Shown: piece by piece, positions 9,049-27,361 of the stretch
Layout of the letters: each line of letters starts with the position of its first letter
Position numbering within the stretch: the stretch's first letter is position 1
Assembly: GCF_000878135.1 (NCBI RefSeq)
Contig: NZ_JXQZ01000027.1
Location: 1 to 64,000, forward strand
Origin: Frigoribacterium sp. MEB024
Lineage (GTDB): Bacteria > Actinomycetota > Actinomycetes > Actinomycetales > Microbacteriaceae
Length of the DNA stretch: 64,000 nucleotides
Direction: 5' to 3'
Notes under the pieces: generated by a model
Told to the model about the DNA's origin: nothing
The model's input: only the letters and a program-made list of their open reading frames with translations
Databases searched by the model: none
Position numbers and translations under genes: made by a program

Positions 9049-9139
9049 GGTACCGTGTCCGAGCGGCCGAAGGATCATGTCTCGAAAACATGTGTGGGGG
9101 TTAACTCCACCGTGGGTTCAAATCCCACCGGTACCGCCA
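9049..9139 (+). tRNA. tRNA-Ser, anticodon CGA
   Basis: Cloverleaf read by eye. Acceptor arm GGTACCG pairs with CGGTACC, followed by discriminator G and an encoded CCA (9137-9139). The anticodon stem CATGT/ACATG holds loop CTCGAAA, giving anticodon CGA, which reads UCG serine codons. The variable arm is long, as expected for serine. The T arm is GTGGG TTCAAAT CCCAC. The gene marks the left edge of the mobile island; 3' ends of tRNA-Ser genes are common integration sites. Confidence 0.95.
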
Positions 9140-9188
9140 CAGGGTTGTTTGCGCATCATCCGAAATTCGTTTGCGGAACTCAGCCCGA

Positions 9189-9345: not shown

Positions 9346-9410
9346 ATTGACTCGTGAGCGGTGGGGGATAGCGGAAGGCTCGGGTGTGGTGCCTTGGAAC
9401 GGGCCTGGGC

Positions 9411-11315
9411 CTACGTTCGCGGAGGCGGATCGACGGTGGGTCCACTCGTCGGGAACGGGGACAGTTCGGGTCGGACGTAGTCGGCGCGGTAGTTGCTCAT
9501 GCCCTCGGCATCACGACGGCGGGTGCGCCGTGCAGGCACCGGCGTCAGGCCCTTCGCGACGCGGCGGTCGCGGTCCTTCGGCGCTCGGTGCTTGGCGGCG
9601 AGGAAGGTGACGATCTTGCGGATGTTGGCGGCCGTCGCGAGCATGGCGAGAAGGAACTGCTGAGCGGCGAGACCGCGCAGGCGCCGTGCACTGGAGTCGG
9701 CGATGCGCTCGGGACCGGTCTTGATGAAGGCGTTGAAGCTCTCGATGCTGTTGCGGTCGCGGCGGTAGGTCTTGGACCACTCCTTGCTGCCATAAGGCAG
9801 CATCTGGTTCATCTTCTCGCCGTCCTCCGGGCGCACCTTGATCGAGGTCTGGCAGCAGACCTTATCTGTCTGCTTGGGGACGTTGGCGCGCAGCACCTGC
9901 CGGCGTTCCTTGTCCGGCGATGCACGCTTGTCGAGCTTGCGGAGGGGGCACTCGACCGTCGCACTCGGGCCGAGGGCTGGGCAGCGCATCTTCACGTTGC
10001 CGTTGGCGTCGGGACCCTCCTTCTTGTGGAGTCGGTATGCGTCACGCTCGTCGATCTGCTGGGACCACTCGACGTTGTCGATCTCCTTGTTGTTGCGCCG
10101 CACCGTTGCATCGAGGAGTCGCTTCGGTGTGCCGGGGCAGAACTGACCGCCTTCAACGAGCTTGGCTCCGCCGACCTGGCCCCGCACACCGGTCTGGTTC
10201 GCGCGGTTGTAGTCGAAGACGAGGCCGACGCCGAGCTCTCTCATCGGACGGTGGAAGTCCTCCATCGTGAGACCCGCGGAGTACCCGAGGTCGGACGAGA
10301 GGCGCGCGATGTCGTACCCGCGTTCCTGGATGTTCTTCACGAGCTCGACGGTGTGGAACCCGATGCCTTTGTTGGGCGTCGTCAGGCTCGCCCCACGGAT
10401 CAGCTGTGGTGCTTCGGTGGGGTCCCCTGAAGGGTCCTCGTTGACGTCGATGATGAGGTTCGCGGTGTAGGCGAGCAGCCACCGGCTCCGTGCCTGCTTG
10501 ACGCTCGCCTTGCCGTTCTCCTTGGTGTGCTTGCTGAAGACGCGTTCCTTCTCTCCCTTGTCGATCGGGTACAGGTCAGCTTCGAGTTCCATCGCGTACT
10601 TCGGCTGTTCCTTGTCCGTGCCCGCGATGAACATGGGCTGCTCGACGCCGTTCTCCCGCGGCCAACGGTTCTTCTGGCTCGGTGCACGCAGCACTGTCTG
10701 GTCGACGGAGAGCGCGAGACGCTGACGTCGCACGGCTCGAGGCAGGTTCTGGGCGGTGGCCTCCAGCAGCGTGTTCGTGAAGGTCATGCTGCGCTCGTGT
10801 GCGCGGCGTTCGATGTTCTTGTCCCGGAGCGCGTCCAGGCTGCTCCGCTCGTCCCGGGTGAGCAGGCGGCGGGGCGCCGGCCAGGCGTCCCAGAGGTCGA
10901 TGATGCGGTGCATGGCCCGCCATGCCAGGAAGTACCAGTCGTTGGGCTTGTCGTTGTCGTACAGGTGAGCGATGCCGAGCTCGCGACGGGCTTCATCGTC
11001 GAGACGGTGTTCGAAGACGCGGCCCATCTCGCGCACGAAGATCATGGACTGCTCCGACAGGAGCATCATCACCACGGTCAGGATGGCCAGGTCATCGATC
11101 TTCGGTTTGGCACCGCCCGGGGCTTTCTTCTCGCGGTCCTCCGCGCGCCATGTCGCGAGGAGCTCGATGACACCCGATGAACGGAGGAAAGTCATCCACT
11201 CACGGGCGTCGGCGCCGCGGAACTTGGTCGTCTTGGTCGATCCGCTGACGATCCGGTCGGCCGTGTAGATGCCGTTGAAGAACTCCTCGTCATGGAAAGA
11301 GGGCTTGCCGGTCAC
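9411..11315 (-). CDS. DDE transposase (634 residues)
   Basis: DDE-type transposase that should cut and join the element's DNA ends. Candidate catalytic residues are Asp205 (SVDQTVLR), Asp342 (SSDLGYSAG) and Glu525 (NSIESFNAF). The last sits in the YRRDRNSIESFNAF block, followed by an IS1182/IS4-like C-terminal helix region. Between the second Asp and the Glu there is an insertion with several Cys (about residues 393, 445, 456, 487 and 488) that could bind zinc. The protein is longer than ordinary IS1182 transposases. The start is a GTG at 11315 that overlaps the upstream stop as GTGA, so it is probably translated by coupling to the recombinase-like gene. No flanking terminal inverted repeats were recognised. 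The DDE class is well supported; the IS family is uncertain. Confidence 0.82.
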   Translation of the reverse strand: MTGKPSFHDEEFFNGIYTADRIVSGSTKTTKFRGADAREWMTFLRSSGVIELLATWRAEDREKKAPGGAKPKIDDLAILTVVMMLLSEQSMIFVREMGRVFEHRLDDEARRELGIAHLYDNDKPNDWYFLAWRAMHRIIDLWDAWPAPRRLLTRDERSSLDALRDKNIERRAHERSMTFTNTLLEATAQNLPRAVRRQRLALSVDQTVLRAPSQKNRWPRENGVEQPMFIAGTDKEQPKYAMELEADLYPIDKGEKERVFSKHTKENGKASVKQARSRWLLAYTANLIIDVNEDPSGDPTEAPQLIRGASLTTPNKGIGFHTVELVKNIQERGYDIARLSSDLGYSAGLTMEDFHRPMRELGVGLVFDYNRANQTGVRGQVGGAKLVEGGQFCPGTPKRLLDATVRRNNKEIDNVEWSQQIDERDAYRLHKKEGPDANGNVKMRCPALGPSATVECPLRKLDKRASPDKERRQVLRANVPKQTDKVCCQTSIKVRPEDGEKMNQMLPYGSKEWSKTYRRDRNSIESFNAFIKTGPERIADSSARRLRGLAAQQFLLAMLATAANIRKIVTFLAAKHRAPKDRDRRVAKGLTPVPARRTRRRDAEGMSNYRADYVRPELSPFPTSGPTVDPPPRT

Positions 11316-12181
11316 TGAGTCGCTCCCGTTGAGCGGAGAAGCGCGTGAAGCTCAACCTCGGGCATGACCTTGGCCAAGGGCGCGTAGCGAAGGAGGGACG
11401 AGACGTTCTTGAAGCCGGCCGCGTAGACGATGCTCGCCAGGGGCAGAACGTTGATCTGGTCCACGATCCAGGTGATGCGGAGGCGCCGAATAGCAGGACC
11501 GTCGTATCGGGCGCCGTAGTGCATCAGCGCGATCTCCCGCGAGGACTCCTTGCGGTGGGGGATGACCGCGTAGTCATCGTCGCCGAGTCCCTCGAAAGCG
11601 ATGTCTGCGTACGAATTCCACCCGATTCGGATGGGGATGCTTCGCGGCGCCTTTCCGGTCACACGGACGACCCAGCCAGCCGGAGTGCGCGTCAAGTCCC
11701 GGCCACGGACCGCGGCGATCTCGGTCGCACCGAGGCCTGCGCCACCGGCAAGCGCGAGAAGCCCATAAGAATCCCGGCGGGCTCGGTCGGTGGACCTCGA
11801 CGCGGCCCAGCTCTCGAAGGCGGGAAGCTCGGAATGCGAGAAGGGTCGTATCTCCCGGCTCTGCTTGTTGAGGCGGTGAGGAGACGGCTCGTAACCAAGC
11901 GCTTCAGCGAGGTTCAGGAGTCTGGTCTCGGCAAGCTGCTGCGTCTTGGCGCTGGGGTAGGTGCGGGCGAAGCGGTAGATCATGGACGGGTAGAAGAGGT
12001 CATCGCGGCGCAGCTCCGCACCGGCTTCGTGGAACGCCCACACGACGTACCGGCTCGCGAAGGTCAGGAGGATCCTCGTGTAGAGCATGTCGTGGGGTTT
12101 GGCGTCGAGGACGCACGCGAGCGTGAAGTCCCGAACGGGCAGCCACTTGGTCGGGGCGATACGTCGCGGCTGATAGCGCAA
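11312..12181 (-). CDS. tyrosine-recombinase-like protein 1, catalytic residues degenerate
   Basis: Protein of 289 residues when started at the TTG at 12181. That codon has a perfect AGGAGG five bases upstream; a longer reading from 12298 is open but would run through the operator. The C-terminal half follows the tyrosine recombinase pattern. A box I-like segment GLGATEIAAVRGRDL (about 150-164) has Gly where the catalytic Arg is expected. A box II-like RRLRITW keeps Arg (about 235) but lacks the His before it, and Tyr266 sits in SLLRYAPL. It may bind DNA without recombining, or be an accessory factor of the coupled transposase. A paralogue lies at 12769-13737. An 18-base palindrome lies 29 bases before the start. 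Confidence 0.7.
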   Translation of the reverse strand: MRYQPRRIAPTKWLPVRDFTLACVLDAKPHDMLYTRILLTFASRYVVWAFHEAGAELRRDDLFYPSMIYRFARTYPSAKTQQLAETRLLNLAEALGYEPSPHRLNKQSREIRPFSHSELPAFESWAASRSTDRARRDSYGLLALAGGAGLGATEIAAVRGRDLTRTPAGWVVRVTGKAPRSIPIRIGWNSYADIAFEGLGDDDYAVIPHRKESSREIALMHYGARYDGPAIRRLRITWIVDQINVLPLASIVYAAGFKNVSSLLRYAPLAKVMPEVELHALLRSTGATQ

Positions 12182-12209
12182 GATCGCCTCCTGTAGCTCC
12201 AGCGTGGCG

Positions 12210-12227
12210 TGGTCATTAGATTGACCA
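12210..12227. promoter_or_regulatory. shared island operator, copy 1
   Basis: TGGTCATTAGATTGACCA, an inverted repeat of TGGTCA arms. It is 29 bases upstream of the TTG start of recombinase-like gene 1. It matches copy 2 (13763-13780) at 16 of 18 positions and lies at nearly the same distance from its gene. Confidence 0.7.
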
Positions 12228-12340
12228 AAGTGTGCTACGGCACGCTCGAGTTGGGAAGAGGGGGAAGTCGGAGGCTGTGTCTCGTCAGGGGTGGTCACGA
12301 GAGATGGACATGAGACAAGACAAGGCCATCAAGCGGTCTG

Positions 12341-12366
12341 GTGCGCTTTCAGCGCACATCTAGACT
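12341..12366 (+). promoter_or_regulatory. promoter of HTH gene 1 (leaderless type) with GC palindrome
   Basis: Perfect palindrome GTGCGCT-TTC-AGCGCAC (12341-12357), then a -10-like TAGACT (12361-12366) six bases before the GTG start. There is no room for a ribosome site, so the transcript is probably leaderless. HTH gene 2 has the same arrangement. Confidence 0.55.
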
Positions 12367-12372
12367 GCGGAG

Positions 12373-12681
12373 GTGCCTGATCCACGTTTCGAGCCGCGGT
12401 CCTACCTGCGTGAGCCAGGCCGCTTCGGTCGCGACCCCGAAGCTCAGTGGGTCTCGGCGGTGTCGTTCTCGTCAGGCCAGCTCGACCAGTGGGGCGCTGC
12501 TCGCATTCAGCATCGCCTGGCGTGCAGCATCCGAGTCGAGATAGCGAGACAATTCCGCTCTGTCGGGACGTACGCGGCTGCCTCTGGGCAGAGTCCTGAG
12601 CGGCTGGGGCGTCTGCTTAGGGGTGAGGTCGTGATGCGTCTGGAAGACGTGGCAAATGCCCGTCGCCATTTGGGCGTCTGA
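12373..12681 (+). CDS. small HTH protein 1, divergent from recombinase-like gene 1
   Basis: Protein of 102 residues. The C-terminal half (about residues 53-102, ARQFRSVGTYAAASGQSPERLGRLLRGEVVMRLEDVANARRHLGV) has the shape of a XRE-type helix-turn-helix; the first 50 residues match nothing I recognise. It begins at a GTG six bases after a -10 box. It is divergent from the recombinase-like/transposase pair, a layout typical of a self-contained regulator and its target. HTH protein 2 (13841-14116) has the same position relative to the second recombinase-like gene. It probably regulates this locus; the target site is not known. Confidence 0.65.
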   Translation: MPDPRFEPRSYLREPGRFGRDPEAQWVSAVSFSSGQLDQWGAARIQHRLACSIRVEIARQFRSVGTYAAASGQSPERLGRLLRGEVVMRLEDVANARRHLGV

Positions 12682-12768
12682 GGGAACCTGGCCGACGCGG
12701 GAAGTGATCGTCTTGTCCCTATACGGGCGTCATGGCCGCAGCCTCGGCTCGCGCCGGGGTGGTAACCA

Positions 12769-13737
12769 TCAGCGAAGTGAGTACCGCCGGGGGTCGTCGT
12801 CCGCTCTGGCGACGTAAGGCAAGAGCCGGTCGAGCGCTTCGGCTGACTGCAAGCCGGCGACCTCCAACAACAGGTCGAGGGGCGTCCCCCGCCGGAGGTG
12901 TTCCACGATCCAGGTCGCTCGCATGCGTCGGGACTGCAGCTCGACCGCAGGGCGTGGATTCCGGCTGACGAAGTCCGTGACGAGATTGATGTTCCCGCCT
13001 CGCTGCCCGCTCCGGAATGCCCACCGGGAGGCTGCCTTGGACGCCGTTCGGCGCTGCAGGAAGGGGGCCCACTGAGCAAGAACCGGGACGTTTCTCGCCT
13101 CGTCACCCGACACGCGCACCGCGACGCCCCGACTATCTGACGTGATGTTCACGAGTTCTAGATCGATGATCTCCCGCCCCGTCAGTCCTGCCCCGAGTCC
13201 GAGCGCGAGGAGCGCGCCGGCGCTGGTCGTCCGTTCCTCGTCGTGCTGGCTACTGGCCCACGACAACAACGACGCCACCTCGCTCGGGGTGTACGGACGT
13301 GACGCCTCAGCCTTGCCCAGGGCCCGGAATGTACCCGCAGCTTCGTCGCCCAGGAGCGCCTCCGACGTGCGTCTCAACCGAGCGCGCAGGGTGTTCTTTC
13401 CTGCCCTGCTGTACTGCCCGAGGTGATGCTGCACGAAGCGGTTGATGAACCTCGGGTCGAAGACGTTGTCATCTTCGAGGGGAACGTTAGCTACCGCCCA
13501 GGCGAACAGGGCGAGACGGGAAACGGCCGGGTAGAGCTCCTTCTCGGAGTACGGCGTTCTGGGGGCCGTGTCGCGGACGACGCGCCGCACGTAAGGGCGG
13601 ATGGCGGCCCACTGATCAGCAGGCATCTTCGGCGTGTAGTCGTAATGAGCCGCAGCCAGCACCTCGGGCTCCCTCTCGGCCATGCGCTTCATTACCTCGA
13701 GCTGCCGTTCGCGGCGTTCGTCAGCTTCATCGCTCAC
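12769..13737 (-). CDS. tyrosine-recombinase-like protein 2, catalytic residues degenerate
   Basis: Protein of 322 residues, paralogue of the protein at 11312-12181. A SAM-like helical N-terminal part (about 60-140) leads to a box I-like GLGAGLTGREIIDLELVNI (about 180-198), where Thr replaces the catalytic Arg. A box II-like RRMRATWIVEHL follows (Arg near 273, no His), and then a Tyr near 308 (RLLPYVARAD). The Lys and second His positions are not evident. It starts at a GTG with GGAG ten bases upstream. It is divergent from HTH gene 2 and has an operator copy 26 bases upstream. No transposase gene follows it, unlike its paralogue. It may act as a DNA-binding regulator or a decayed integrase. 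Confidence 0.68.
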   Translation of the reverse strand: MSDEADERRERQLEVMKRMAEREPEVLAAAHYDYTPKMPADQWAAIRPYVRRVVRDTAPRTPYSEKELYPAVSRLALFAWAVANVPLEDDNVFDPRFINRFVQHHLGQYSRAGKNTLRARLRRTSEALLGDEAAGTFRALGKAEASRPYTPSEVASLLSWASSQHDEERTTSAGALLALGLGAGLTGREIIDLELVNITSDSRGVAVRVSGDEARNVPVLAQWAPFLQRRTASKAASRWAFRSGQRGGNINLVTDFVSRNPRPAVELQSRRMRATWIVEHLRRGTPLDLLLEVAGLQSAEALDRLLPYVARADDDPRRYSLR

Positions 13738-13762
13738 CGGCGCTCATCTCCAAGCTCGAAAG

Positions 13763-13780
13763 TGGTCATTACAATGACCA
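13763..13780. promoter_or_regulatory. shared island operator, copy 2
   Basis: TGGTCATTACAATGACCA, a perfect palindrome with 8-base arms and an AC centre, 26 bases upstream of recombinase-like gene 2 and inside its divergent promoter with HTH gene 2. Confidence 0.72.
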
Positions 13781-13809
13781 ATTTGTGATACGTTCGACGG
13801 GGCGGCCGT

Positions 13810-13834
13810 GCGCGCGAGCTGGCGCGCCTAGCCT
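13810..13834 (+). promoter_or_regulatory. promoter of HTH gene 2 (leaderless type) with GC palindrome
   Basis: GCGCGC-GAGCTG-GCGCGC (13810-13827) directly precedes TAGCCT (13829-13834), which is six bases before the ATG. Palindrome, -10 box and spacing mirror the promoter of HTH gene 1. Confidence 0.5.
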
Positions 13835-13840
13835 TGCGGC

Positions 13841-14116
13841 ATGGGTAGAACAGCGCGTGCGAAACCAGCCGCGCTGGCCCCGTCCCCGTGGCCAGACGTT
13901 CGCTCGGACGACCCGATCGGGGAAGTGGCTCGCAGATTCGCGCAGAACCTTCGTCAGGCCGTCGGCAGTCGCAGCATCCGGTCGGTAGCCGAAGCTTCAG
14001 GTGTCACCCATACGACTCTGCTCAGCGTCCTGGCGGGCCAGGTGTGGCCGGACCTCGAAACGATCGCGAAGCTCGAGCGGGGGCTCGGCGTTTCCCTTTG
14101 GCCGCGCCACAGCTGA
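13841..14116 (+). CDS. small XRE-type HTH protein 2
   Basis: Protein of 91 residues. From about residue 30 it forms a XRE-like helix-turn-helix: FAQNLRQAVGSRSIRSVAEA, then SGVTHTTLLSVLAGQVWPD, then LETIAKLERGLGVSLWP. The WPDLETIAKLE ending is a familiar form in actinobacterial island regulators. The ATG is six bases after TAGCCT. It is divergent from recombinase-like gene 2. It may repress this promoter or act on the shared operators at 12210, 13763 and 14691; which protein reads which site cannot be told from sequence. Confidence 0.75.
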   Translation: MGRTARAKPAALAPSPWPDVRSDDPIGEVARRFAQNLRQAVGSRSIRSVAEASGVTHTTLLSVLAGQVWPDLETIAKLERGLGVSLWPRHS

Positions 14117-14139
14117 TCGTTCCAACGTGACGGTCTTGG

Positions 14140-14691
14140 TCATGTCGATTCATCAGGCCTTTGCCCGCCCCCGGGGTCTGTCTGCGGCGAGGGTCTGTCG
14201 GGAATGTCCACCATGGTCACCTCGTCGGCCCTGGGGATTGGTGCGAACCGTTGCTGGTTGGCAGTGGGAAGTTCGTCGAGCCAGACTGCTCCTCGCTCTA
14301 CCAGCCGGGCTCGAAGTGACGTTCCGGTGATGTTCTCTGCGGCGTCAGTGACCGGAGTTGCCTCGAGTTGGAACTCACCGAGCCTGAGGCATAGCTCGAG
14401 ATAGGTCAGATAGGTCTGTCGCACATGGGCCAAGAGCTCGTCGGGGGCATCTTCGGTACTCGTCTCGCGGAGCACATCTGACGTCGGCGCCCAGCTGATC
14501 GACGCCTCGTGCTCATCTATGGCTGCTGTGAGGCCCGAGAGTGGGCCGGCAGGGTGAGCTCTCCATGTGACGCTGCTGCTTGGTTGGGCTATGAGCGAGT
14601 CGCTCAGGTCCAGGAAAAGCCCTTGAATCGTGATGATGCCGAAGGCCTTGCGCTGCCCCGAGGTCGGCTTCGCTTGTTTGCTTGCATCCAT
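14140..14691 (-). CDS. unknown protein controlled by the shared operator
   Basis: Protein of 183 residues. No family is recognised. It is mixed alpha/beta by composition, without signal peptide or membrane helix. A hydrophobic stretch (FGIITIQGLFLDLSDSLI) is followed by a helical block (ELLAHVRQTYLTYLELCLRLGEFQLEA), and the tail is Pro/Asp-rich. The ATG at 14691 is preferred over upstream in-frame ATGs at 14697 and 14712, because operator copy 3 overlaps and immediately precedes it. The gene is convergent with HTH gene 2. Its product belongs to the island's regulated set, whatever its role. Confidence 0.55.
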   Translation of the reverse strand: MDASKQAKPTSGQRKAFGIITIQGLFLDLSDSLIAQPSSSVTWRAHPAGPLSGLTAAIDEHEASISWAPTSDVLRETSTEDAPDELLAHVRQTYLTYLELCLRLGEFQLEATPVTDAAENITGTSLRARLVERGAVWLDELPTANQQRFAPIPRADEVTMVDIPDRPSPQTDPGGGQRPDEST

Positions 14692-14708
14692 GGTCATTAC
14701 TATTACCA
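14691..14708. promoter_or_regulatory. shared island operator, copy 3
   Basis: TGGTCATTACTATTACCA agrees with copy 2 at 16 of 18 positions. One half (TGGTCATTAC) is intact and the other diverged. It abuts the start of the 14140-14691 gene and lies just before the divergent open frame at 14715. Confidence 0.6.
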
Positions 14709-14714: not shown

Positions 14715-15185
14715 ATGCGGAGGGTCCAGGATCACAAGAAGTTAGAAGGTGGCGGAGTGGCCGAGGGCGAGCAGACTGCAGGGCAATACACGATTGTCGG
14801 ATTAGGCGCGAGCCCGCCGAGCGTGGTCGTCTGGAGAGCGGATGTCTCGCGCGTGGCTCAAGATTGGCGACTTGCCGGAGTCGATCTGGGAATGAGGGAT
14901 GGGAGGCCTTTCGGGTCTCTCCACTTCGAGGAGGTCAACGGATCGCGCCGCGCTCGGGTCGCTGTCCGGTGGGACCACGTGTACGACCAGTTGCAGTGCT
15001 TCGTCACGGATCGGAGCTTTGCGGCGGAGGGGGAGCGCCTCGAGCGAGATGCTCGGCACCGTGTCGGCACGCTGATGGCCGCGTACGCGCAGATCGGGCT
15101 TGCAATCACCGCTGGAGCTGTCGCAGAAGGCTCATTGAGGGCCGCTTCGAACCTCGTGCCGATTGGTCCGAGGCATCCCGGTTGA
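14715..15185 (+). CDS. hypothetical protein, divergent from the 14140-14691 gene
   Basis: Open frame of up to 156 residues from the ATG at 14715; a GTG at 14758 preceded by GGTGG is an alternative start. The protein has an alternating strand pattern (QYTIVGLGASPPSVVVWRAD, DHVYDQLQCFVTD), then a helix and an Ala/Gly-rich tail. No family is recognised. Base composition and frame length are compatible with a real gene, but a chance frame in this G+C range cannot be excluded. Confidence 0.4.
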   Translation: MRRVQDHKKLEGGGVAEGEQTAGQYTIVGLGASPPSVVVWRADVSRVAQDWRLAGVDLGMRDGRPFGSLHFEEVNGSRRARVAVRWDHVYDQLQCFVTDRSFAAEGERLERDARHRVGTLMAAYAQIGLAITAGAVAEGSLRAASNLVPIGPRHPG

Positions 15186-15245: not shown

Positions 15246-15761
15246 TCACTCCTCGTAGTCGACCGCGCCTTCGATGACGAGAAACAGCATGAATAGCTGA
15301 TCTGCGAGCACTGCCAGGTCGTAAGCGACGTCTTCCACCTGTGCCACGGTGAATGTGCGATCCACGGTCCCCTTGGCCTTGACCCGGCTCGCCGAAGCTG
15401 GTCCTTTTCCCGGTGTTGTCCACGCGCCGTGCAGCAGGTGATTCCGGCTCTCCATCGCAACTTTCGAGTCGGCGGACAGTCGCGTGAACATGTCGCGTAC
15501 CTGCCCCTGGAAGCGGTGCAGCTTCACGAGCTTCGCGCCCAATTCGAGCAGGCCGCTGAAGGAGACGCCACGGGTCACCACAATTCCTATGTCATTTGTC
15601 TCGCGGTCATCGTCGCTGACGAGGGCCATGACGGCGAACGCTAGCGTGCGCTCCAGTCGAGCAGACCAGTACGCGACCTCGCCCATCGCGACTAGGTGCT
15701 CTCGATCAAGGCCGGTGGCGCGTACTCGGGCTCGGTGTTCGGGAGAGGGGCGCTCGCTCAT
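15246..15761 (-). CDS. unknown protein with a HEPN-like RNxxxH motif
   Basis: Protein of 171 residues, mostly helical. The line YWSARLERTLAFAVMALV is followed by GLLELGAKLVKLHR and then SRNHLLHGAW. The RNHLLH element fits the R-x4-H pattern of HEPN ribonucleases, and the helix-loop arrangement around it agrees. No partner antitoxin such as an MNT nucleotidyltransferase is adjacent. It could be a toxin-like or defence effector, or an unrelated helical protein. It is preceded by a GGGAGG element 10 bases from the ATG at 15761. Confidence 0.5.
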   Translation of the reverse strand: MSERPSPEHRARVRATGLDREHLVAMGEVAYWSARLERTLAFAVMALVSDDDRETNDIGIVVTRGVSFSGLLELGAKLVKLHRFQGQVRDMFTRLSADSKVAMESRNHLLHGAWTTPGKGPASASRVKAKGTVDRTFTVAQVEDVAYDLAVLADQLFMLFLVIEGAVDYEE

Positions 15762-16229
15762 GCATCAGATCCGAGGGAGGTAGCCCCGATGCTAACGGGC
15801 TGACAGTCAACGGCTTGACTGGCGATAGGCGCCCAGGACCTGACCGGGTGGTTCGGCTTCTTCAAGGCCCCGCCCGCGCTTTTCTGCATCAGCCGGGCCG
15901 ACCCTCCAAGATCCGCCTGGGCGTCACGCGGGGCTGTGAGGTAGGAAGCGTCGATCGGCGAACAGGCGCTCCTAGGGAGGGGTGACGATGTCATGTCGGC
16001 AGTGTCACATAGTGCCCCGTCACCGGAACCTGTCTCGGACCACCTATCTGAGACGGTTAGATCCGCGCAGCCCCAAGGGGGTGGTCGAGGCTGGCGATCG
16101 TCCGGCTAACGATCCCCCACTGGATCACTTGCTGTGGGGCGAGCGCACTCGGAGAGGACGCCGTCGTGGTCGTTCCGTGTCGTCGGTGAGCGTGGGCGGA
16201 AACGGTCCCTAACGTCGTAGCGTCTAGGG
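15762..16229. other. 468-base stretch without a recognised gene
   Basis: Only short open frames of up to about 100 codons occur, on both strands, none with a family pattern or ribosome site. The right end carries TAGCGT six bases before the ATG of the UDG-like gene, a leaderless-type promoter. Confidence 0.5.
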
Positions 16230-16775
16230 ATGCAGCAGCCCAGGGGCCTCGATCAGCTCGTATCGGAATGGCGGAGCTCCGGACCAGGACGTGCGCGCTT
16301 CGTGCCGGGCTTCGACCCATCAGGTGGAGGAGCAGCGGCGACAGTTCTCGTGCTGATGGAATCACCCGGTCCTGCCACGATCAAGCAGGGCGAGGACGCG
16401 ATCAGCAGTGAGGACAACCCGGGGCCGACGGCGTCTGCGTTCAGGCGAGCACGGATCGAGTCGGGTCTGGGCAGGAACGTCTACCTGCGATGGAACATCG
16501 TCCCGTGGGCCCTTGGTCGGGCGCCGACCGTCACCGATCTCGACGAGGCACGCCCTGCCCTGGCTCAGCTGCTCGTTTCTCTGCCGCAGCTGCGGGCGAT
16601 CGTGACCTTCGGCACTCCGGCCCTGACGGGCGTGATGAGGTACTTCACCCTGGAACCGCGTGCGAGGGTCGTGCCCGTGCTCGCGGCACCCCATCTGTCG
16701 CCGGCGAACGCCACCCGCGCCGGCGAGAAGCACCTGCGGGCCGTCACGGCCCTACGGCACGCTTCGCTTCTCTGA
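16230..16775 (+). CDS. uracil-DNA-glycosylase-like protein
   Basis: Protein of 181 residues with the UDG-superfamily layout. An early loop VLVLMESPGPAT stands where family 4/5 enzymes have GEAPG. An NIVPWALGRA segment follows, then a central strand LRAIVTFGTPAL, and a late HLSPANA loop equivalent to the DNA-binding HPSP. The family removes damaged or uracil bases, but the altered motif A means the activity here is unproven. TAGCGT lies six bases before the ATG, so the mRNA is probably leaderless. It is immediately convergent with the LysR gene: the two stop codons are adjacent. Confidence 0.65.
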   Translation: MQQPRGLDQLVSEWRSSGPGRARFVPGFDPSGGGAAATVLVLMESPGPATIKQGEDAISSEDNPGPTASAFRRARIESGLGRNVYLRWNIVPWALGRAPTVTDLDEARPALAQLLVSLPQLRAIVTFGTPALTGVMRYFTLEPRARVVPVLAAPHLSPANATRAGEKHLRAVTALRHASLL

Positions 16776-17711
16776 TCATCTCGGCGAGGAGTCGGGGCTG
16801 TGCTGCGACGCGGCGATCACGGCCAGGAGATCCTGCGCCCCGGCGCTCAGACCGGCCGACCACACGGCGCGGAACGGGCGCCTCAGGTCGACGGCTGCCG
16901 GGACGGTGACGAGGCGCCCGGCACGGAGGTCGTCCTCGACCAGCAACGAGCTGATGACTCCCGGACCCACACCGCCGGCGATGGCCGCCCGGATGGCGCC
17001 CGTCGACGACAACTGCGCAGCGGGTTCTGCCATCAGGGCAGGGTCGATCCCCAGGGCGAGCTCGAGGGTCCGGCGGGTGCCCGAGCCCGACTCCCGAGAC
17101 ACGAGCGGTGTGGATGCGAGATCCGCTGCCGTCACGGGTTCGGACTTCGATGCCCATGCGTGCCTCGGCGAGACGACGACGAGCAGTTCGTCGACACCCA
17201 GGACGGTCGTGGCGAGCCCGTCGGCCTCATCAGGGGTCTCCGTGAACCCGAGGTGCGCGCGCCCCGAACGGACCTCGTCAACGACCCAGTCGCTGTTGCC
17301 CGATTCCAGGCGTACCCGGACACGATCCGCTGCCGCTGTCATCCAGCGTGGCATCAGCGCCTCTGACACCGTCTGACTCGCCGCGACGAGGAGAGCGTCG
17401 GAGGCGCCGGTCATCAGGGTGTGCAGCGATCGTTCGAAGGTGGTCGCCGCCTCGAGCAGGGGTCGGCCCCACTCGCACACCAGGAGTCCGTGCTCGGTCA
17501 GCGCCGAGCCCGCCCGAGAACGGACGAGCAACGTACGACCCAGCCGCCGCTCGGCGCCCGTGATGCGAGACGACGCCGCCTGCTGGCTGATGCCCACCGA
17601 TGTCGCGGCCCGGCCCAGACTGCCCGATCTCGAGATCGCCTCCAGCAGTCGGAGCGTCTCGAGATCAACAGGGAGTCCGGTCACAAGGATCGATTGTGAC
17701 ACCACAAGCAT
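16776..17711 (-). CDS. LysR-type transcriptional regulator of the TDT transporter
   Basis: About 311 residues from the ATG at 17711; a GTG at 17684 gives 302 and may be the true start, because the palindrome at 17694-17707 would then lie upstream. The N-terminal winged HTH is clear: LETLRLLEAISRSGSLGRAA, then TSVGISQQAASSRITGAERR. A substrate-binding domain follows (LLVAASQTVSEALMPRWM onward). It is divergent from the TDT permease gene, a pair known from sulfite or C4-dicarboxylate efflux loci. It probably activates the permease in response to a small ligand and represses itself. Confidence 0.85.
   Translation of the reverse strand: MLVVSQSILVTGLPVDLETLRLLEAISRSGSLGRAATSVGISQQAASSRITGAERRLGRTLLVRSRAGSALTEHGLLVCEWGRPLLEAATTFERSLHTLMTGASDALLVAASQTVSEALMPRWMTAAADRVRVRLESGNSDWVVDEVRSGRAHLGFTETPDEADGLATTVLGVDELLVVVSPRHAWASKSEPVTAADLASTPLVSRESGSGTRRTLELALGIDPALMAEPAAQLSSTGAIRAAIAGGVGPGVISSLLVEDDLRAGRLVTVPAAVDLRRPFRAVWSAGLSAGAQDLLAVIAASQHSPDSSPR
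17694..17707. promoter_or_regulatory. LysR-type operator between regulator and transporter
   Basis: TTGTG-ACAC-CACAA, a T-N11-A-type inverted repeat, lies 47 bases before the transporter start. This is the expected position for LysR control of a divergent pair. Confidence 0.5.
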
Positions 17712-17753
17712 CCGCCCGTATCGGCAGCCGGACGCACGTACGAAGATCGAGGC

Positions 17754-18902
17754 ATGCCTGCCGCGATCACACCGACTGTCGCCCCTCCCCGCACGCACGG
17801 TCTGTTCCGCCAGCTCGAGCACCGCGGGCAGATCGTGTCGAACCTGACCCCGAACTGGTTCGCGTCGATCATGGGGACCGGCATCGTCGCCAACGCCGCG
17901 GCGACCCTGCCGTTGCAGTTCCCGGGGCTGCGCCCTGCCGCGACCATCGTCTGGGCACTGGCCAGCGTGTTGTTGGTCGCTCTCAGCACGGCGACCGTCA
18001 TGCACTGGGTGCGTTACCGAGCCACCGCGCGGGGGCATCGACTCAATCCGGTGATGGCGCACTTCTACGGGGCACCGCCCATGGCGCTGCTGACCGTCGG
18101 CGCGGGCACCCTGCTCTTGGGCAGAGACGTCCTCGGTACGCCCCTGGCGGTCGGCATCGACTGGGTGTTGTGGACCATCGGTACGGTGCTCGGCCTCGTC
18201 AGCGCGATCGCGGTCCCGTACCTGACGTTCACCCGGCACGACACGGCCCCCGACAGTGCGTTCGGCGGCTGGCTCATGCCCGTGGTTCCCCCGATGGTGT
18301 CTGCCTCGACCGGTGCGCTGCTGCTGCCCTTCCTGCCCGCGGGGCAGGCCAGGCAGAATATGCTCTGGGGGTGCTACGCGATGTTCGGGTTGTCGTTGCT
18401 GGCGTCGATCGTGATCATCACGCTGATCTGGTCACGCCTGGCCCAGCACAAGATCGGCCCGGCCGGCATGGTCCCGACCCTCTGGATCGTCCTCGGCCCC
18501 CTGGGGCAGTCGATCACCGCGGCCAACCTGCTCGGTGGCAACGCCCACCTCGCCGTCGACCAGGGAACCTCGCACGCCCTGTTCGTCTTCGGGCTCGTCT
18601 ACGGTGTGCCCACTCTGGGATTCGCCCTGATGTGGGCGGCACTGGCATCGGCCATCACCCGCCGCACCATCCGCCAGGGGCTCCCGTTCTCACTCACCTG
18701 GTGGTCGTTCACCTTCCCCGTCGGCACCTGCGTGACAGGCCTGAACGGTCTGGCCCTGCACACGGGACTCGTCGCGCTGCAGGTACTGGCGGTCGTGTTC
18801 TACATCGGGCTCGTCGGGGCCTGGGTCACGGTCGCCGTGCGCACCTTCCACGGCAGCGTCATACGCGGAACGCTCCTCGCGCCTCCCCGTCCCCTGCCCT
18901 GA
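17754..18902 (+). CDS. TDT family (TehA/SLAC1-fold) permease
   Basis: Integral membrane channel-like transporter of 382 residues with about ten membrane helices, starting at NLTPNWFASIMGTGIVANAA, a typical TDT opening. The family includes tellurite-resistance TehA, malate permease Mae1 and the sulfite exporter Ssu1. The LysR neighbour and actinobacterial relatives fit sulfite or dicarboxylate efflux, but the substrate is inference. The start is the ATG at 17754. The ends are hydrophilic, and the last 40 residues, with TFHGSVIRG, lie in the cytoplasm. Confidence 0.85.
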   Translation: MPAAITPTVAPPRTHGLFRQLEHRGQIVSNLTPNWFASIMGTGIVANAAATLPLQFPGLRPAATIVWALASVLLVALSTATVMHWVRYRATARGHRLNPVMAHFYGAPPMALLTVGAGTLLLGRDVLGTPLAVGIDWVLWTIGTVLGLVSAIAVPYLTFTRHDTAPDSAFGGWLMPVVPPMVSASTGALLLPFLPAGQARQNMLWGCYAMFGLSLLASIVIITLIWSRLAQHKIGPAGMVPTLWIVLGPLGQSITAANLLGGNAHLAVDQGTSHALFVFGLVYGVPTLGFALMWAALASAITRRTIRQGLPFSLTWWSFTFPVGTCVTGLNGLALHTGLVALQVLAVVFYIGLVGAWVTVAVRTFHGSVIRGTLLAPPRPLP

Positions 18903-18934
18903 CCGCGGACGACGAGGGTGCGTGGGGGAGTGGC

Positions 18935-19378
18935 TCAGATCGAACAGGCGTCGTTCCAGTCACGGCGATAGGCCTCGGGGTCACTGACGTCGACGATGGC
19001 CGAGGCGGCGCCCTTGGGCTCGTCACGCGACCGGTAGCTCTCGAACGCCACCGCACTGCGGTCGTTGCTCGCCGGATCACGCACCCCGGAGGCTTCAACC
19101 CACAGAGTCCAGTTCCACCGCGTCCGGACGCCAGGCTGCAACGCGCCTTCGCCGACGACCAACAGCACGTCCGTGCCGGCGGGTGAAGACTCGAAGTCTG
19201 CGCCCGTGAATGATCGGACCGACGACGTGAGGCCTCTCGCGCTGATCTCCCGAGCTAACTGACTGCCCATGTCCGAGAGATGCTCGCCAGCATCGCCATC
19301 CACAGCCACGATGCCTCCACCGGACGGAAGCTGACTCAGCATCTCGGAAACCAAGTCATGGATGACGGTGTTGCTCAT
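18935..19378 (-). CDS. degenerate P-loop (uridine-kinase-like) protein
   Basis: Protein of 147 residues. It opens with IVAVDGDAGEHLSDMGSQLA. This sits where uridine-kinase-like proteins have VDGxSGSGKTTLA, but the GKT of Walker A is absent. Later blocks, VLLVVGEGAL and WNWTLWVEASG, fit the kinase fold's strands, and YRSRDEPKGAAS the lid region. Nucleotide binding is therefore unlikely in the usual way. It stands alone between the TDT gene and a gap of about 190 bases. The relation to uridine kinase is by eye and only suggestive. Confidence 0.5.
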   Translation of the reverse strand: MSNTVIHDLVSEMLSQLPSGGGIVAVDGDAGEHLSDMGSQLAREISARGLTSSVRSFTGADFESSPAGTDVLLVVGEGALQPGVRTRWNWTLWVEASGVRDPASNDRSAVAFESYRSRDEPKGAASAIVDVSDPEAYRRDWNDACSI

Positions 19379-19571
19379 GATGCTTTCTCCTGCTCACTCG
19401 TTCGTCGAAACGGAAAAGGGAGTCGGCGGCCGCCGACTGATGCGGCTGCACGAAGCGGTCGCGAACCTGATGCAACCACGAGCATGCGCCGACGTTCAGC
19501 CCTGTAGAAGCGCGTGCTTGGAGCGCCCGATAGGGGATCGTCTATCGGACACCTGCGAACTGGTGGACGCG

Positions 19572-19886
19572 CTAATGGTCCGTGCTCTGAAACGACGAGA
19601 TGGCTTCCTGAAGCTGAGCCAGCGACGGAGAACCTGCAAGACCATCGGGAGTGAGGTAGACGCGGCAGGCCAAACCAGGAGGCGCGTCCGGGGCCGGGAA
19701 GAGCGGGGTGCCGTCGATGAGCAGTGTTGGCGAGCCTCGGAAGTCCAACGCTTCTGCGTCGGCCTGCGTTTCAACGCGCTGCTCGATCACGGTGAAGTCA
19801 TTCCGATCTGCCTTAATGACGGCCAGACGCTCGGCTGTGGTTTCCCAGTTCGGGCACCCGTCGAAGTACTGCAAGGTGATTTGCAT
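19572..19886 (-). CDS. thioredoxin-fold protein (arsenic/mercury-locus type)
   Basis: Protein of 104 residues. QITLQYFDGCPNWETTAERL gives a thioredoxin-like first strand and one active-site-type Cys (FDGCPNW). DFRGSPTLLIDG is the cis-Pro region, and APPGLACRVY adds a second Cys. Similar small proteins accompany arsenic and mercury resistance genes. It lies 44 bases downstream of the permease stop on the same strand and is probably co-transcribed with it. A role in thiol chemistry or metal handling is inference. Confidence 0.65.
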   Translation of the reverse strand: MQITLQYFDGCPNWETTAERLAVIKADRNDFTVIEQRVETQADAEALDFRGSPTLLIDGTPLFPAPDAPPGLACRVYLTPDGLAGSPSLAQLQEAISSFQSTDH

Positions 19887-19930
19887 CTCTCGACGCTAAA
19901 CGCTGGCGAGGGCCGGTGGCCTATCTCGGA

Positions 19931-20926
19931 CTACTTGCCAGTTTTCGTGACGGGATGGGCCTTTGTGGTTTGACTGCTCACGAGGCGGGGGATGAGTCGG
20001 ACGAAGATCACCATGCCCATGAGTTCGACGAGCGTCTGGGTCACGACAACGACCGGGGCAAGCGACAGTGACGCCGGCAGGGCCAGCGCGAGCGGCAAGA
20101 CCACGAGCGAGTTCCTGGTCGCGCCGCTGAACACCAGGGCCCGGGTTGCTGGCACGTCGAGTCGGAAGGTGCGAGCAATGCCGATTCCGATCGCCGCCAT
20201 GACGACGAGGAACCCGGCGTAGATCGGCACCAGCACGAGCAACTGCCCCAAGGAGTCCCCAACAGCTCCCGCTTGGGAGGCCACGACGGTGAACAGGGTC
20301 GCCATCATCAGCGGCACCATCACGCCCAGCATCGTCCGCTCGATCACGACACCGGATCGGTGTCGCCGGGCGAGTGCCTGCACGAGCGCGGCCGCGGTGA
20401 GCGGGACAGCGATCAGGAGAAGGAAGGCCCGGGCGAAGGGGCCGACCTCGACCACGGCGACGCCCTCGGGGCCGATGAACACCAGCAGGTACAGCGGCAG
20501 GAGGAGGATCTGCGCCAGCATCAGCAGCGGTGCAGCGGCGAGGAGCCGTTCCGACGCGCCGCCAGCAAGGCCGGCGAACACGATCACGTAGTCGATGCAC
20601 GGGGTCAGCAGCACCAGCAGCACCCCGAACAGCAGCGCCGGCTCGTCCGCAACAAACCGGGACAGCCCGTACGCGACGACCGGGACGACGGCGAAGTTCA
20701 GCACCCCGACCGCGGCGAGGAACCGTCCGTCGCGGAGGGACTTCCCGATCGCGGCGAACGGGACCCCGAGGAACGTCGCGAACAGCAGGAGCGCGAGCAC
20801 GGGCTCGATCGCTGCCTCTAGGTGGTTTGCTCCCGGCACGGTGAGGCCGACGACGCCGGCAGCCAGGATCGCCGCCAGGTAGAGGCCTATCTGCCGGTGT
20901 TCGAGCCAGGAGACGACCGCGTTCAC
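19931..20926 (-). CDS. arsenic-resistance-type permease, BASS superfamily
   Basis: Transporter of 331 residues with about ten membrane helices. The sequence resembles bile-acid:sodium-symporter-like arsenic resistance proteins: FATFLGVPFAAIGKSLRDGRF, the helix break LLTPCIDYVIVFAGLAGG with a Cys, and SGATRNSLVVLPLAL near the end. It is distinct from the Acr3 protein at 24403-25488, so the locus has two candidate exporters. It is divergent from a MerR regulator and followed by the thioredoxin-fold gene. Substrate (arsenite or an organoarsenical) is not determinable. Confidence 0.75.
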   Translation of the reverse strand: MNAVVSWLEHRQIGLYLAAILAAGVVGLTVPGANHLEAAIEPVLALLLFATFLGVPFAAIGKSLRDGRFLAAVGVLNFAVVPVVAYGLSRFVADEPALLFGVLLVLLTPCIDYVIVFAGLAGGASERLLAAAPLLMLAQILLLPLYLLVFIGPEGVAVVEVGPFARAFLLLIAVPLTAAALVQALARRHRSGVVIERTMLGVMVPLMMATLFTVVASQAGAVGDSLGQLLVLVPIYAGFLVVMAAIGIGIARTFRLDVPATRALVFSGATRNSLVVLPLALALPASLSLAPVVVVTQTLVELMGMVIFVRLIPRLVSSQTTKAHPVTKTGK

Positions 20927-20981
20927 GGCTGGACTGGTGTGGAGGAGGAAGGCACGTCAGTGACCGTAGAGGTTCGAGCCG

Positions 20982-21015
20982 CTTGAAGGTCAAGTGGCAC
21001 CGGCGGCTCTATGGT
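20982..21015 (+). promoter_or_regulatory. MerR-type promoter
   Basis: CTTGAAGGTCAAG (20982-20994) forms an inverted repeat overlapping a -35-like TTGAAG. A -10-like TATGGT (21010-21015) is spaced 21 bases away. A long spacer with a dyad is the hallmark of MerR-controlled promoters. It lies between the permease and merR genes. Confidence 0.45.
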
Positions 21016-21021
21016 CGCGGT

Positions 21022-21423
21022 GTGCGAATCTCCGAGGTCAGCAAGCGCAGCGGCGTCCCCGCCACGGCGCTCCGCTACTACGAGTCCATCGGGCTCTTGA
21101 CTGCTGCCAGGACCTTGAACGGGTACCGGGATTACAGCCCGGACGTTCTCAGTCGGCTCGACCTGATCGAGGCCAGCAAGGAACTCGGGCTGCCTCTTGA
21201 TCAGATCGGCGTGCACCTCAGCACCATGGAGTCGACGTCCTGCACCGATGTCCGCGAAGCCTTACGGCCGCTCCTGGCCGAGCAGGTGCGTCAGATCGAG
21301 GAGAAGCAGGCCCGCCTCGACCAGCTCCGATCGCGTCTCTCGCGCGCCGAGCACGACCTGGCCGAATGCCCTGACCGGTCTGAGCGGTGCTCGACCGAGT
21401 GCGTCTTCCGCACCAGCGCCTAG
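21022..21423 (+). CDS. MerR family regulator with Cys-rich C-terminus
   Basis: Protein of 133 residues from the GTG at 21022, where the family's first strand (RISEVSKRSGV) begins; a longer frame starts at 20983. The winged HTH is typical: ATALRYYESIGLLTAARTLNGYRDYSPDVL. A dimerisation coiled coil (EQVRQIEEKQARLDQLRSRL) and a tail with three Cys (AECPDRSERCSTEC) follow. The Cys could sense a metal or metalloid. It is divergent from the BASS-type permease, which is its likely target. Its last four bases overlap the arsN1 stop, so the genes are convergent. Confidence 0.82.
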   Translation: MRISEVSKRSGVPATALRYYESIGLLTAARTLNGYRDYSPDVLSRLDLIEASKELGLPLDQIGVHLSTMESTSCTDVREALRPLLAEQVRQIEEKQARLDQLRSRLSRAEHDLAECPDRSERCSTECVFRTSA

Positions 21424-21935
21424 GAAGGGTCGGTGGGTGAGCGTCGTTCGATCAGAACGGTGTCGCGCCACACGCCGGCATAAGGGCCTGCTTCGGAGCG
21501 CGCGATCCGTTCCCGCGTCCCGATCCGGCGGAACCCCGCCCTGTCGTGGAGGGCCAGGCTCGCCCCGTTCTCGGGGAAGATCGACGACTGAACGGTCCAG
21601 ATGTCCGAAGCATCCACCGAGTCGAGGAACGCACTCAGCAACTCCCATCCAATGCCACGTCCTCGCGCCGCGGCGGTGACGTAGACGGAGTGCTCGACGA
21701 CACCTGCATACGCTGGCCTGGCCGACGTCGCAGACGCCGCCACCCAGCCGAGCACGGCGCCCGCGGTGTCGTCGACCGCGACGAACCGGTGCGCGGCGAG
21801 CTTGCCTGCATCGAACGCGTCCCAGGTCGGGGTGCGGGTCTCGAAGGTGGCGTTACCGGTGTCGATACCCTCCTGGTAGATCTGCTCGATGGCGGGCCAG
21901 TCGTCCGGGGCCATGGCCCGGACGGTGACGCTCAC
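21420..21935 (-). CDS. arsN1: GNAT acetyltransferase, ArsN1/phosphinothricin acetyltransferase type
   Basis: Acetyl-CoA-dependent N-acetyltransferase of 171 residues. The protein shows the PAT pattern: IEQIYQEGIDTGNATFETRTPTW, then a central VEHSVYVTAAARGRGIGWELL acetyl-CoA loop, then SIFPENGASLALHDRAGF. In ars operons this family (ArsN1) acetylates and detoxifies arsinothricin, an organoarsenical glutamate mimic. The GTG start at 21935 overlaps the upstream stop as GTGA, giving coupled translation. An in-frame ATG upstream is rejected for that reason. The subfamily is inferred from context and similarity. Confidence 0.78.
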   Translation of the reverse strand: MSVTVRAMAPDDWPAIEQIYQEGIDTGNATFETRTPTWDAFDAGKLAAHRFVAVDDTAGAVLGWVAASATSARPAYAGVVEHSVYVTAAARGRGIGWELLSAFLDSVDASDIWTVQSSIFPENGASLALHDRAGFRRIGTRERIARSEAGPYAGVWRDTVLIERRSPTDPS

Positions 21936-23275: not shown

Positions 23276-23943
23276 GCGGGGAGACCCTTCGATTCGATGC
23301 CGAGTTCGGCCAGGAGCGATTCGACGAGCTTGCGAACGTCGTCGCGGATGAGGCGCACCTGCTCGAGGGGGAGCCCGGCGGGGTCGGTGAGGTGCCAGTC
23401 GCGGTAGGTCTTGCTGGGGTAGATCGGGCACGCGTCGCCGCAGCCCATCGTGATCACGACGTCGGCTGCCTGCACGACGTCGTCTGTCAGCGGCTTCGGG
23501 AACGCCTCGTCAAGGTCGAGGCCCAGCTCTCGCATCGCTTCCGCGACGACGGGGTGGAGGTCTCGGGCGGGCATAGACCCGGCGGAGCGGACGTGGACGG
23601 CACCGCCGGAGAGGACGTTGGTGAACACGGCTGCCATCTGGGACCGGCCGGCGTTCTGCTCGCAGACGAACAGCACCTCCGGCACCGTCCGCTCGATCGC
23701 CCCGGTGGCCTGCCCGAGAGCAGTCAGCCGGTCGATCGCGAACCGGGTCGCATTGGTGGTCAGGTGCGCCCGGACTTGCGCTGTGCGAAGGAGAGCCGTG
23801 TAGGACTCGAGCACGTACCGCTCGATCGTCTCCGGTCCGAAGATGCCCTCGAACCGGGTGGCGAGGTCGCCCGCGGCACGCTTGAGTGCGTCCTCGGGGA
23901 AGGCAAGGCCCGGCAGGCCGCGCCTCGTGGTCAGGTCCGTCAT
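23272..23943 (-). CDS. arsenate reductase-like protein with N-terminal helical bundle
   Basis: Protein of 223 residues in two parts. Residues 1-80 are helical (FPEDALKRAAGDLATRFEGIF onward), like the three-helix bundle seen in some actinobacterial ArsC proteins. The rest is a low-molecular-weight phosphatase fold: VLFVCEQNAGRSQMAAVF is the P-loop with the nucleophile Cys, and ITMGCGDACPIYP has two more Cys for the thiol relay. It is likely to reduce arsenate with mycothiol. It lies 25 bases after the next arsC gene, so the two are paralogous tandem reductases. Confidence 0.82.
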   Translation of the reverse strand: MTDLTTRRGLPGLAFPEDALKRAAGDLATRFEGIFGPETIERYVLESYTALLRTAQVRAHLTTNATRFAIDRLTALGQATGAIERTVPEVLFVCEQNAGRSQMAAVFTNVLSGGAVHVRSAGSMPARDLHPVVAEAMRELGLDLDEAFPKPLTDDVVQAADVVITMGCGDACPIYPSKTYRDWHLTDPAGLPLEQVRLIRDDVRKLVESLLAELGIESKGLPA

Positions 23944-23968
23944 CGTCGTTTCCTCACAGCTCAGGGGG

Positions 23969-24379: not shown

Positions 24380-24402
24380 GACGGGTTCCTTCGGGTGAGG
24401 GG

Positions 24403-25488: not shown

Positions 25489-25573
25489 GCAGCTCCATAG
25501 ATCGATGAGTGTCGATGCGTTGAGCCTGCCCCAACCCATCGACGGCTGTCAATCTGTGTGGAAGAGTGTTCAC
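25489..25573. promoter_or_regulatory. divergent arsR/acr3 promoter region
   Basis: 85 bases between the two starts. ATCGA-TGAGTG-TCGAT (25501-25516) forms a short dyad, and CATCGACGG and CTGTCAATCTGTG follow. ArsR sites are usually imperfect dyads in this position; the exact box is not certain. Confidence 0.4.
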
Positions 25574-25924: not shown

Positions 25925-26061
25925 GTTCTGCTGCGTTTTCCCTCGTCTCTTGGCTGGCGCATGCACTCAAGATGCCGCATGGCTTACAGCTGGAGGGAAT
26001 CAACATCGCGTAGTGTGAGTTGATCTCGTTGATGGGAATCATGACGAATGGGGGGTTGACC

Positions 26062-27331: not shown

Positions 27332-27361
27332 ACCTCACCATTCCTTCTGGCTTTGTCGGAC

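Follow-up and report, generated by a model that had tools for sequence, protein, structure and literature searches.

A tRNA-homing DDE transposon of Frigoribacterium and its actinobacterial relatives, with recombinase-like proteins that appear to have lost catalysis

Tyrosine integrases are normally held responsible for integration into tRNA genes. In the Tn7-like transposon Tn6022, a non-catalytic protein derived from tyrosine recombinases, TnsF, has been shown to select the target gene comM (PMC10293859). The locus described here lies in a stretch of 64,000 nucleotides of Frigoribacterium sp. MEB024 (family Microbacteriaceae; contig NZ_JXQZ01000027.1, positions 1 to 64,000), called the window throughout. 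Positions 9142-28802 of the window are almost certainly a tRNA-homing DDE transposon inserted at the 3' end of a tRNA-Ser(CGA) gene. A DDE transposon appears responsible here for integration at tRNA genes, with duplications of 5-7 bp and at many tRNA types. A sequence-only reading had described part of this region as a duplicated regulatory cassette of a mobile element, consisting of two paralogous modules in which a small helix-turn-helix (HTH) gene diverges from a tyrosine-recombinase-like gene. The mobile element, the modules, their shared operator-like site and the recombinase-like nature of the proteins are upheld, but the region is not primarily a regulatory cassette. Downstream of the recombinase-like genes lies a DDE transposase-like gene, with which they form a tRNA-homing transposon. 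The two modules and the adjoining DDE gene constitute the transposition module of the element. Such a transposon, together with the roles proposed below for its proteins, is probably the best explanation of the locus as a whole.

The element measures 19,661 bp and is bounded by perfect inverted repeats of 11 bp and by a 6-bp duplication, GCCACA (Table 1). From the duplication onward, the right flank in the window is identical over 34 bases to the sequence directly after the tRNA gene of G002 (G000 is the genome of the window; other G and L numbers denote other genomes and loci compared). This comparison with an uninterrupted site rests on the tRNA flanks of other strains, G002 and G005; in G002 an imperfect tRNA-end repeat occurs 4.8 kb farther on, and the G002 flank may itself be the end of an island. 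A displaced tRNA fragment was not found at the right end, where just 6 bp are repeated; a search of G000 for the final 22 bases of the tRNA gene, allowing up to three mismatches, gave a single occurrence.

Table 1. Features of the transposon and its target gene in the window
Feature	Position	Strand	Basis or remark
tRNA-Ser (CGA), target gene	9049..9139	+	ARAGORN; 3' end remains intact
Left target-site duplication GCCACA (final 4 bases of tRNA gene + CA)	9136..9141		sequence
Left terminal inverted repeat GGGTTGTTTGC, directly after tRNA-Ser(CGA)	9142..9152	+	
Left-end direct repeats GTTTGCG, 22-bp period	9147-9153 and 9169-9175 (span 9147..9175)	+	sequence
DDE transposase-like protein, 634 aa, distant IS1182 kin	9411..11315	-	D205, D342, E525 invariant in 14 family members
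Recombinase-like protein 1 (rec1), start GTG 12298 or TTG 12181	11312..12298	-	4-bp overlap with DDE frame; catalytic residues apparently lost
18-mer operator-like site 1, TGGTCATTAGATTGACCA	12210..12227		
TAGACT, presumed -10 element of leaderless HTH1 transcript	12361..12366	+	sequence
HTH1-like protein, 102 aa, without Pfam match	12373..12681	+	
Recombinase-like protein 2 (rec2), 322 aa	12769..13737	-	tyrosine-recombinase fold by model; catalytic residues apparently lost
18-mer operator-like site 2, TGGTCATTACAATGACCA	13763..13780		
TAGCCT, presumed -10 element of leaderless HTH2 transcript	13829..13834	+	sequence
HTH2, 91 aa, PF01381 HTH_3	13841..14116	+	
Hypothetical protein, start overlapping 18-mer site 3	14140..14691	-	
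Third 18-mer, TGGTCATTACTATTACCA, 1 mismatch	14691..14708		covers ATG (14691) of next minus-strand ORF
Hypothetical protein, divergent from 14140..14691 gene, GTG 14757 start assumed	14757..15185	+	
Cargo, including SLAC1-family channel, two SBF-family transporters, MerR regulator, FAD oxidoreductase, two low-molecular-weight phosphatase/ArsC-like proteins	15246..28189		open reading frames (ORFs) + Pfam
Right terminal inverted repeat GCAAACAACCC, element end	28792..28802	-	
Right target-site duplication GCCACA	28803..28808		then sequence found directly after tRNA in G002

Elements of this two-module type are present in 7 of the 16 genomes of the genus, and their ends could be resolved in five of the seven; those of G001 and G009 could not. 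The duplications are GCCACA in G000, GCCAGA in G007 and G014, GCCACG in G011 and GCCAAA in G004. Although the duplicated bases of the last four genomes differ from those of the window, left and right copies agree within each element. G000 and G007 share a block that is 99.58% identical, corresponding to window positions 9022-28813 and stopping a few bases from the right end of the element. Since this block is bounded on its left by matching blocks of only 87-90% identity, and on its right there is no match in the G007 DNA compared, the element is the unit that moved.

In G004 two right ends follow in succession, the first being followed by left-end-like sequence; beyond the second, from the duplication onward, all 30 bases compared are identical to what comes after the tRNA of G005. 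Left-end-like sequence stands directly after a right end in G297, G286, G628, G797, G021 and G004 (the last four judged by eye), indicating repeated insertion at one tRNA gene. Other traces were seen as well. At L065 in G010, the left end of an element lies about 175 bp after the tRNA and is soon followed by sequence resembling the gene at 14757-15185, with no DDE or recombinase-like match there; it looks like a decayed copy. At the same tRNA-Ser locus, L031 (G003) and L032 (G013) carry a divergent pair of recombinase-like and DDE genes that runs in the opposite orientation; the distance to the tRNA is about 2.5 kb in G003, and at L032 ARAGORN finds no tRNA.

Right ends were sought in 30 islands as an inverted repeat combined with an exact duplication, the null being 20 shuffled left ends for each island. 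Adding the exact duplication to the scan resolved 17 of the 30 islands, in which the true ends scored better than all 20 shuffles; the five resolved Frigoribacterium elements are among them. These elements range from 6.6 kb (G286) to 49.7 kb (G019) and have inverted repeats and target-site duplications of 5-7 bp. A scan for nothing but an inverted copy of the initial 70 bp had been tried for the same purpose and was discarded, as the majority of the 14 loci scored close to the null.

Judged by profile matches, related elements occur in many other actinobacteria. The DDE profile found matches in 29 of 394 genomes of the class and, fragments included, in 59 of 299 genomes of the host family, two sets that overlap. 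Among the matches listed, 52 DDE loci were analysed, namely all 30 listed for the class search and 22 of the family search (L220-L226 were left out as already-known elements); five of them (L160-L164) come from genomes supplying rows of the profile. A convergent tRNA or tmRNA gene lies within 500 bp of the DDE stop codon, at 60-296 bp, in 43 of the 52 loci (38 of 47 when the profile-row loci are removed). The tRNA is on the 3' side of the DDE gene in 44 of the 52 and on the other side in none, this comparison of the two sides being the sole control for chance proximity. A recombinase-like neighbour is present in 42 of the 52 loci, and adjoins 41 of the 43 DDE genes that cover at least 500 of the 587 profile positions. 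The conserved core consists of genes for one to three recombinase-like proteins followed by the DDE gene, whose 3' end faces the tRNA. The targets seen are tRNA genes for Ser (CGA, GCT, GGA), Leu (CAG, GAG), Pro, Met, Ala, Val and Gly, and tmRNA.

Many left ends share a further trait. Direct repeats 22 or 23 bp apart were detected in 19 of 31 left ends (nine and ten, respectively, none with both; three of the 19 are near-copies), compared with at most one of 31 for any other single lag between 11 and 35; the sequence of the repeat varies between elements. No relatives were found in viral contigs, searched with a single protein, or in phage records, and nine plasmid records gave weak matches. 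Some individual loci deserve mention. G308 carries two members of the family (L112, L113) at different tRNA genes, Gly-CCC and Met. At L106 (G164), three tandem recombinase-like stretches precede the DDE match, with no tRNA within the 19.5 kb examined. The tmRNA gene is the target at L107, L108 and L181; the DDE gene lies 1.6 and 4.0 kb away in the first two, with other DNA between, and 247 bp away in the third.

D205, D342 and E525 of the presumed transposase are conserved without exception across 14 DDE sequences, whose identity to the window protein is 18-37%. The only transposase family matched in NCBIfam is IS1182, found weakly in four of the DDE proteins (E 1e-5 for the window protein and 1e-9 for that of L109) and absent from a fifth. 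In Pfam, none of six DDE proteins matches a family of the rve/TnsB integrase core at E <=1, a search that did not include direct comparison to TnsB.

The recombinase-like proteins 1 and 2 are paralogues (27% identity over 277 columns, E 1e-14); the similarity between the HTH proteins, which the sequence-only reading had also paired, is weak (37% over 57 columns, E 2e-6). In Pfam, no family matches either recombinase-like protein at E <=1; PHROGs gave a single match at E 0.13, and NCBIfam matched protein 2 to XerD at E 0.0028. A profile built from 11 such proteins retrieved strong relatives followed by a weak tail, with matches in 149 of 396 genomes at E <=0.001; the tail presumably corresponds to ordinary integrases. 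A structure model of protein 2, made from 8 sequences, reached pLDDT 81.5 and was matched by Foldseek to XerA, Cre, the Tn1549 integrase and XerH (prob 1.00, best E 5e-6). According to this model, protein 2 has the tyrosine-recombinase fold, which the recombinase-like proteins would retain. Catalytic columns were read from one MAFFT alignment of 38 recombinase-like proteins with 10 integrases of the same genomes. Arg I is present in 7/38, the His of the HxxR box in 1/38, its Arg in 37/38 and the Tyr in 14/38; the third-box His was found in none of the 38, nor was a Trp found there. The full R-H-R-(H/W)-Y set of integrases is thus present in 0/38, and the recombinase-like proteins appear to be catalytically dead, with just one active-site Arg kept.

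A division of labour among these proteins can be proposed. The DDE protein would cut and join DNA. The dead recombinase-like proteins, whose parent enzymes usually target the 3' end of tRNA genes, may recognise this end and bring the transposase to it, a role like that of TnsF in Tn6022; on balance, we lean slightly towards this role as target selectors. It is possible, with less probability, that the DDE protein itself recognises tRNA ends and that the recombinase-like proteins act elsewhere, for instance in end synapsis, excision control or regulation. The present data do not separate these roles, the DDE and recombinase trees have several cherries in common, and Dada elements, which are DDE transposons, target tRNA and snRNA genes with duplications of 6-7 bp (PMC3706591). 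However, a dead tyrosine recombinase acting as target selector has a tested precedent in TnsF (PMC10293859), and the recombinase-like gene adjoins nearly all the near-full-length DDE genes (41/43).

Several observations weigh against reading these loci as tRNA-homing DDE transposons whose targets are chosen by dead recombinases. Thirteen of the 30 islands gave no convincing right end, G009 among them, which reaches the end of its contig; five of those left without a resolved end have a candidate for which at least one of the 20 shuffles was equally good. Nine of the 52 DDE loci have no tRNA within 500 bp. L183, L186, L187, L189, L229 and L237 are tRNA-less, and in L189, L229 and L237 the DDE gene is full-length, a recombinase-like gene is present and more than 1.4 kb of DNA is available; at L170 and L188 just 246 and 83 bp extend beyond the DDE gene, and L248 has a tRNA-Arg at 642 bp. 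With respect to structure, the model of the DDE protein was unusable (pLDDT 32), and the Foldseek matches of recombinase-like protein 2 have low TM-scores, 0.33-0.46, with rmsd >12 (47 matches with E <=0.001). With the Tyr present in 14 of the 38 proteins, it is the other columns of the one MAFFT alignment that speak for a loss of catalysis. Neither the recombinase nor the DDE tree clusters by tRNA type beyond chance overall (26 and 23 of 200 shuffles were as low), the strongest single label being Ser-CGA on the DDE tree (21 of 500 shuffles), and target type fits the recombinase tree no better than the DDE tree. The trees therefore do not favour the recombinase-like proteins as selectors, and the DDE protein could be the selector.

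The 18-mer had been proposed as an operator common to both modules, and its copies do agree at 16 of 18 positions (89%), both matching TGGTCATTAnnnTGACCA with no mismatch. Allowing up to three mismatches, the window contains eight strand matches, that is, four sites counted on both strands, the fourth being at 3338 with three mismatches; shuffled windows gave a mean of 0.24 matches and a maximum of 2, so that the motif is well above chance. The third copy, at 14691-14708, had escaped the sequence-only reading. As had been noted, sites 1 and 2 precede the minus-strand genes. The gap is 25 bases for rec2 (GTG 13737) and 28 for rec1 if its start is TTG 12181. This TTG, which the sequence-only reading took as the true start, is mildly favoured over GTG 12298, because variable columns among six genomes fall on codon positions 1:2:3 in proportions of 2:3:5 between GTG and TTG compared with 12:5:62 downstream; the start is not settled by this. 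With GTG 12298, site 1 would lie inside the coding sequence. Homologous islands lacking the 18-mer were to refute the sequence-only reading, and on this the outcome is divided. The 18-mers are retained in six other close copies of the modules in Frigoribacterium (L022-L027), but a scan of five less closely related homologous loci (L028-L032, of which two belong to the same genus) found none with up to one arm mismatch. On this distribution, the 18-mer is a lineage-specific operator candidate and no defining part of the element.

The hexamer TAGnCT stands exactly six bases before both HTH starts, as first reported, and we take it, in view of actinobacterial promoters generally, to be the -10 element of leaderless mRNAs. 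Of 16 HTH starts from four genera, 15 have the pattern TAnnnT with a six-base gap, and the sixteenth has a gap of seven bases; near-copies from a single genus account for 12 of the 16, and the other start codons were picked by alignment to the window proteins. The GC-rich inverted repeats reported upstream of both HTH genes are also present, although they are weak evidence by themselves, and no common palindrome was found upstream of the recombinase-like genes among nine stretches inspected from other lineages.

The HTH proteins, presumably made from leaderless mRNAs, could repress the transposition module. In Frigoribacterium, the 18-mers at three starts, those of rec2, the rec1-DDE operon and the third gene, would serve as the operator, and transposition would be off unless repression is lifted. 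Whether an HTH protein, rather than a recombinase-like protein, binds this candidate operator is close to an even bet. Binding by a recombinase-like protein is a weaker possibility, suggested by the arrangement TGGTCA-N6-TGACCA, which resembles two recombinase arms around a spacer, as in Xer sites, and by the other palindromes that the HTH genes have of their own. However, the only 18-mers found within the element (up to one arm mismatch) stand at three gene starts, a position that suits a repressor, and neither the ends nor the tRNA has such a site.

It is very unlikely that the modules are a duplicated regulatory cassette and the neighbouring transposase an unrelated insertion sequence. The divergent HTH genes and the conservation of the 18-mers in the window and the six other close copies would suit such a cassette, but it is contradicted by the conserved arrangement of recombinase-like gene, DDE gene and tRNA: the DDE gene adjoins the recombinase-like gene in 41 of the 43 near-full-length cases and overlaps rec1 by 4 bp in the window. 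A scan of five other homologous loci, moreover, found no 18-mer there. Also very unlikely is an ordinary tRNA genomic island with unusual but active tyrosine integrases. In its favour, tRNA and tmRNA genes are the usual target of these enzymes (PMC4383910), the fold fits and a 31-bp tRNA-end repeat is present in G007. The ends speak strongly against it, since duplications of 5-7 bp and inverted repeats mark the resolved elements; moreover, the catalytic set is found in none of the 38 proteins, and the G007 repeat lies about 76 kb away by a canonical PF00589 integrase, the element's own end being at 19.66 kb.

As regards the cargo, the Pfam scan covered ten proteins, three of them without a family. 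Positions 20983-25539 encode a MerR regulator, an FAD oxidoreductase, two ArsC-like phosphatases and an SBF-family transporter, which looks like an arsenic-type cluster. Similar-looking ORFs occur near the same tRNA in G005 (L064), where the left end of the element does not adjoin the tRNA. The G+C content drops to about 60% over positions 26000-41000, far past the right end at 28802, and the region beyond that end is probably another island. In G007, the canonical PF00589 integrase is found at 1136353-1137131 of contig C2 with the 31-bp tRNA-Ser end repeat, about 76 kb from the tRNA; this is probably a second, ordinary island lying beyond the transposon at the same tRNA. A phage-type att island had been considered on the basis of this repeat and was rejected, the repeat belonging to the region of the canonical integrase.

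Slightly favoured, on the whole, is the view that these elements represent a widespread class of actinobacterial tRNA-homing DDE transposons, not described before, in which ancestral tyrosine integrases aimed at tRNA genes would have given up catalysis and taken on target selection for an IS1182-like transposase that works without TnsABC and TniQ. No description of such elements was found in the open-access literature, a search that did not extend to preprints or to most subscription papers. If this is true, such transposons would explain tRNA-linked islands without an active integrase and would re-insert in tandem at the same tRNA. They should escape island-finding methods that depend on an integrase and on a displaced piece of the tRNA gene, yet DDE matches occur in 59 of the 299 host-family genomes. 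To our knowledge, Tn6022 is the one earlier example of a site-specific DDE transposon accompanied by a dead tyrosine recombinase. The present family would be the second case of such a recombinase serving a DDE transposase, and a system of few proteins in which target choice and its change could be studied.

Compared with known systems, the DDE protein resembles IS1182 transposases through a weak profile match, but its score of 24.6 bits falls well short of the 270 bits set as the family cut-off, and the element has a large cargo and a fixed tRNA target. Dada elements share the DDE transposase and the 6-7-bp duplications in tRNA and snRNA genes; however, they are eukaryotic and insert inside the gene, and no recombinase partner is mentioned in the excerpt of the source (PMC3706591). 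Casposons also have inverted repeats and target duplications, with a few bases duplicated at tRNA genes, but they use Cas1 and carry PolB, whereas the present family has a DDE protein and dead recombinases (PMC4046053); neither Cas1 nor PolB is among the ten cargo proteins scanned, which are part of the ORFs. Tsy elements combine tyrosine-recombinase-type proteins and HTH proteins in one element, but their recombinases are needed catalytically, whereas the recombinase-like proteins here lack the catalytic residues and are accompanied by a DDE gene (PMC10293859). A search for TniQ gave no match in seven genomes, and control genomes likewise gave none; the TniB profile, used to look for a TnsC/TniB-type ATPase, matched in 7/7 genomes and also in 13/14 control genomes, its matches in G000 (C57:1942-2403 and C7) both lying outside the element. 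The likeness to Tn6022 lies in a non-catalytic, tyrosine-recombinase-derived protein within a DDE-type transposon. However, Tn6022 has TnsA, TnsB, TnsC, TniQ and TnsE and targets comM, while the family described here has one distantly IS1182-like DDE protein with one to three recombinase-like proteins and targets the ends of tRNA and tmRNA genes (PMC10293859).

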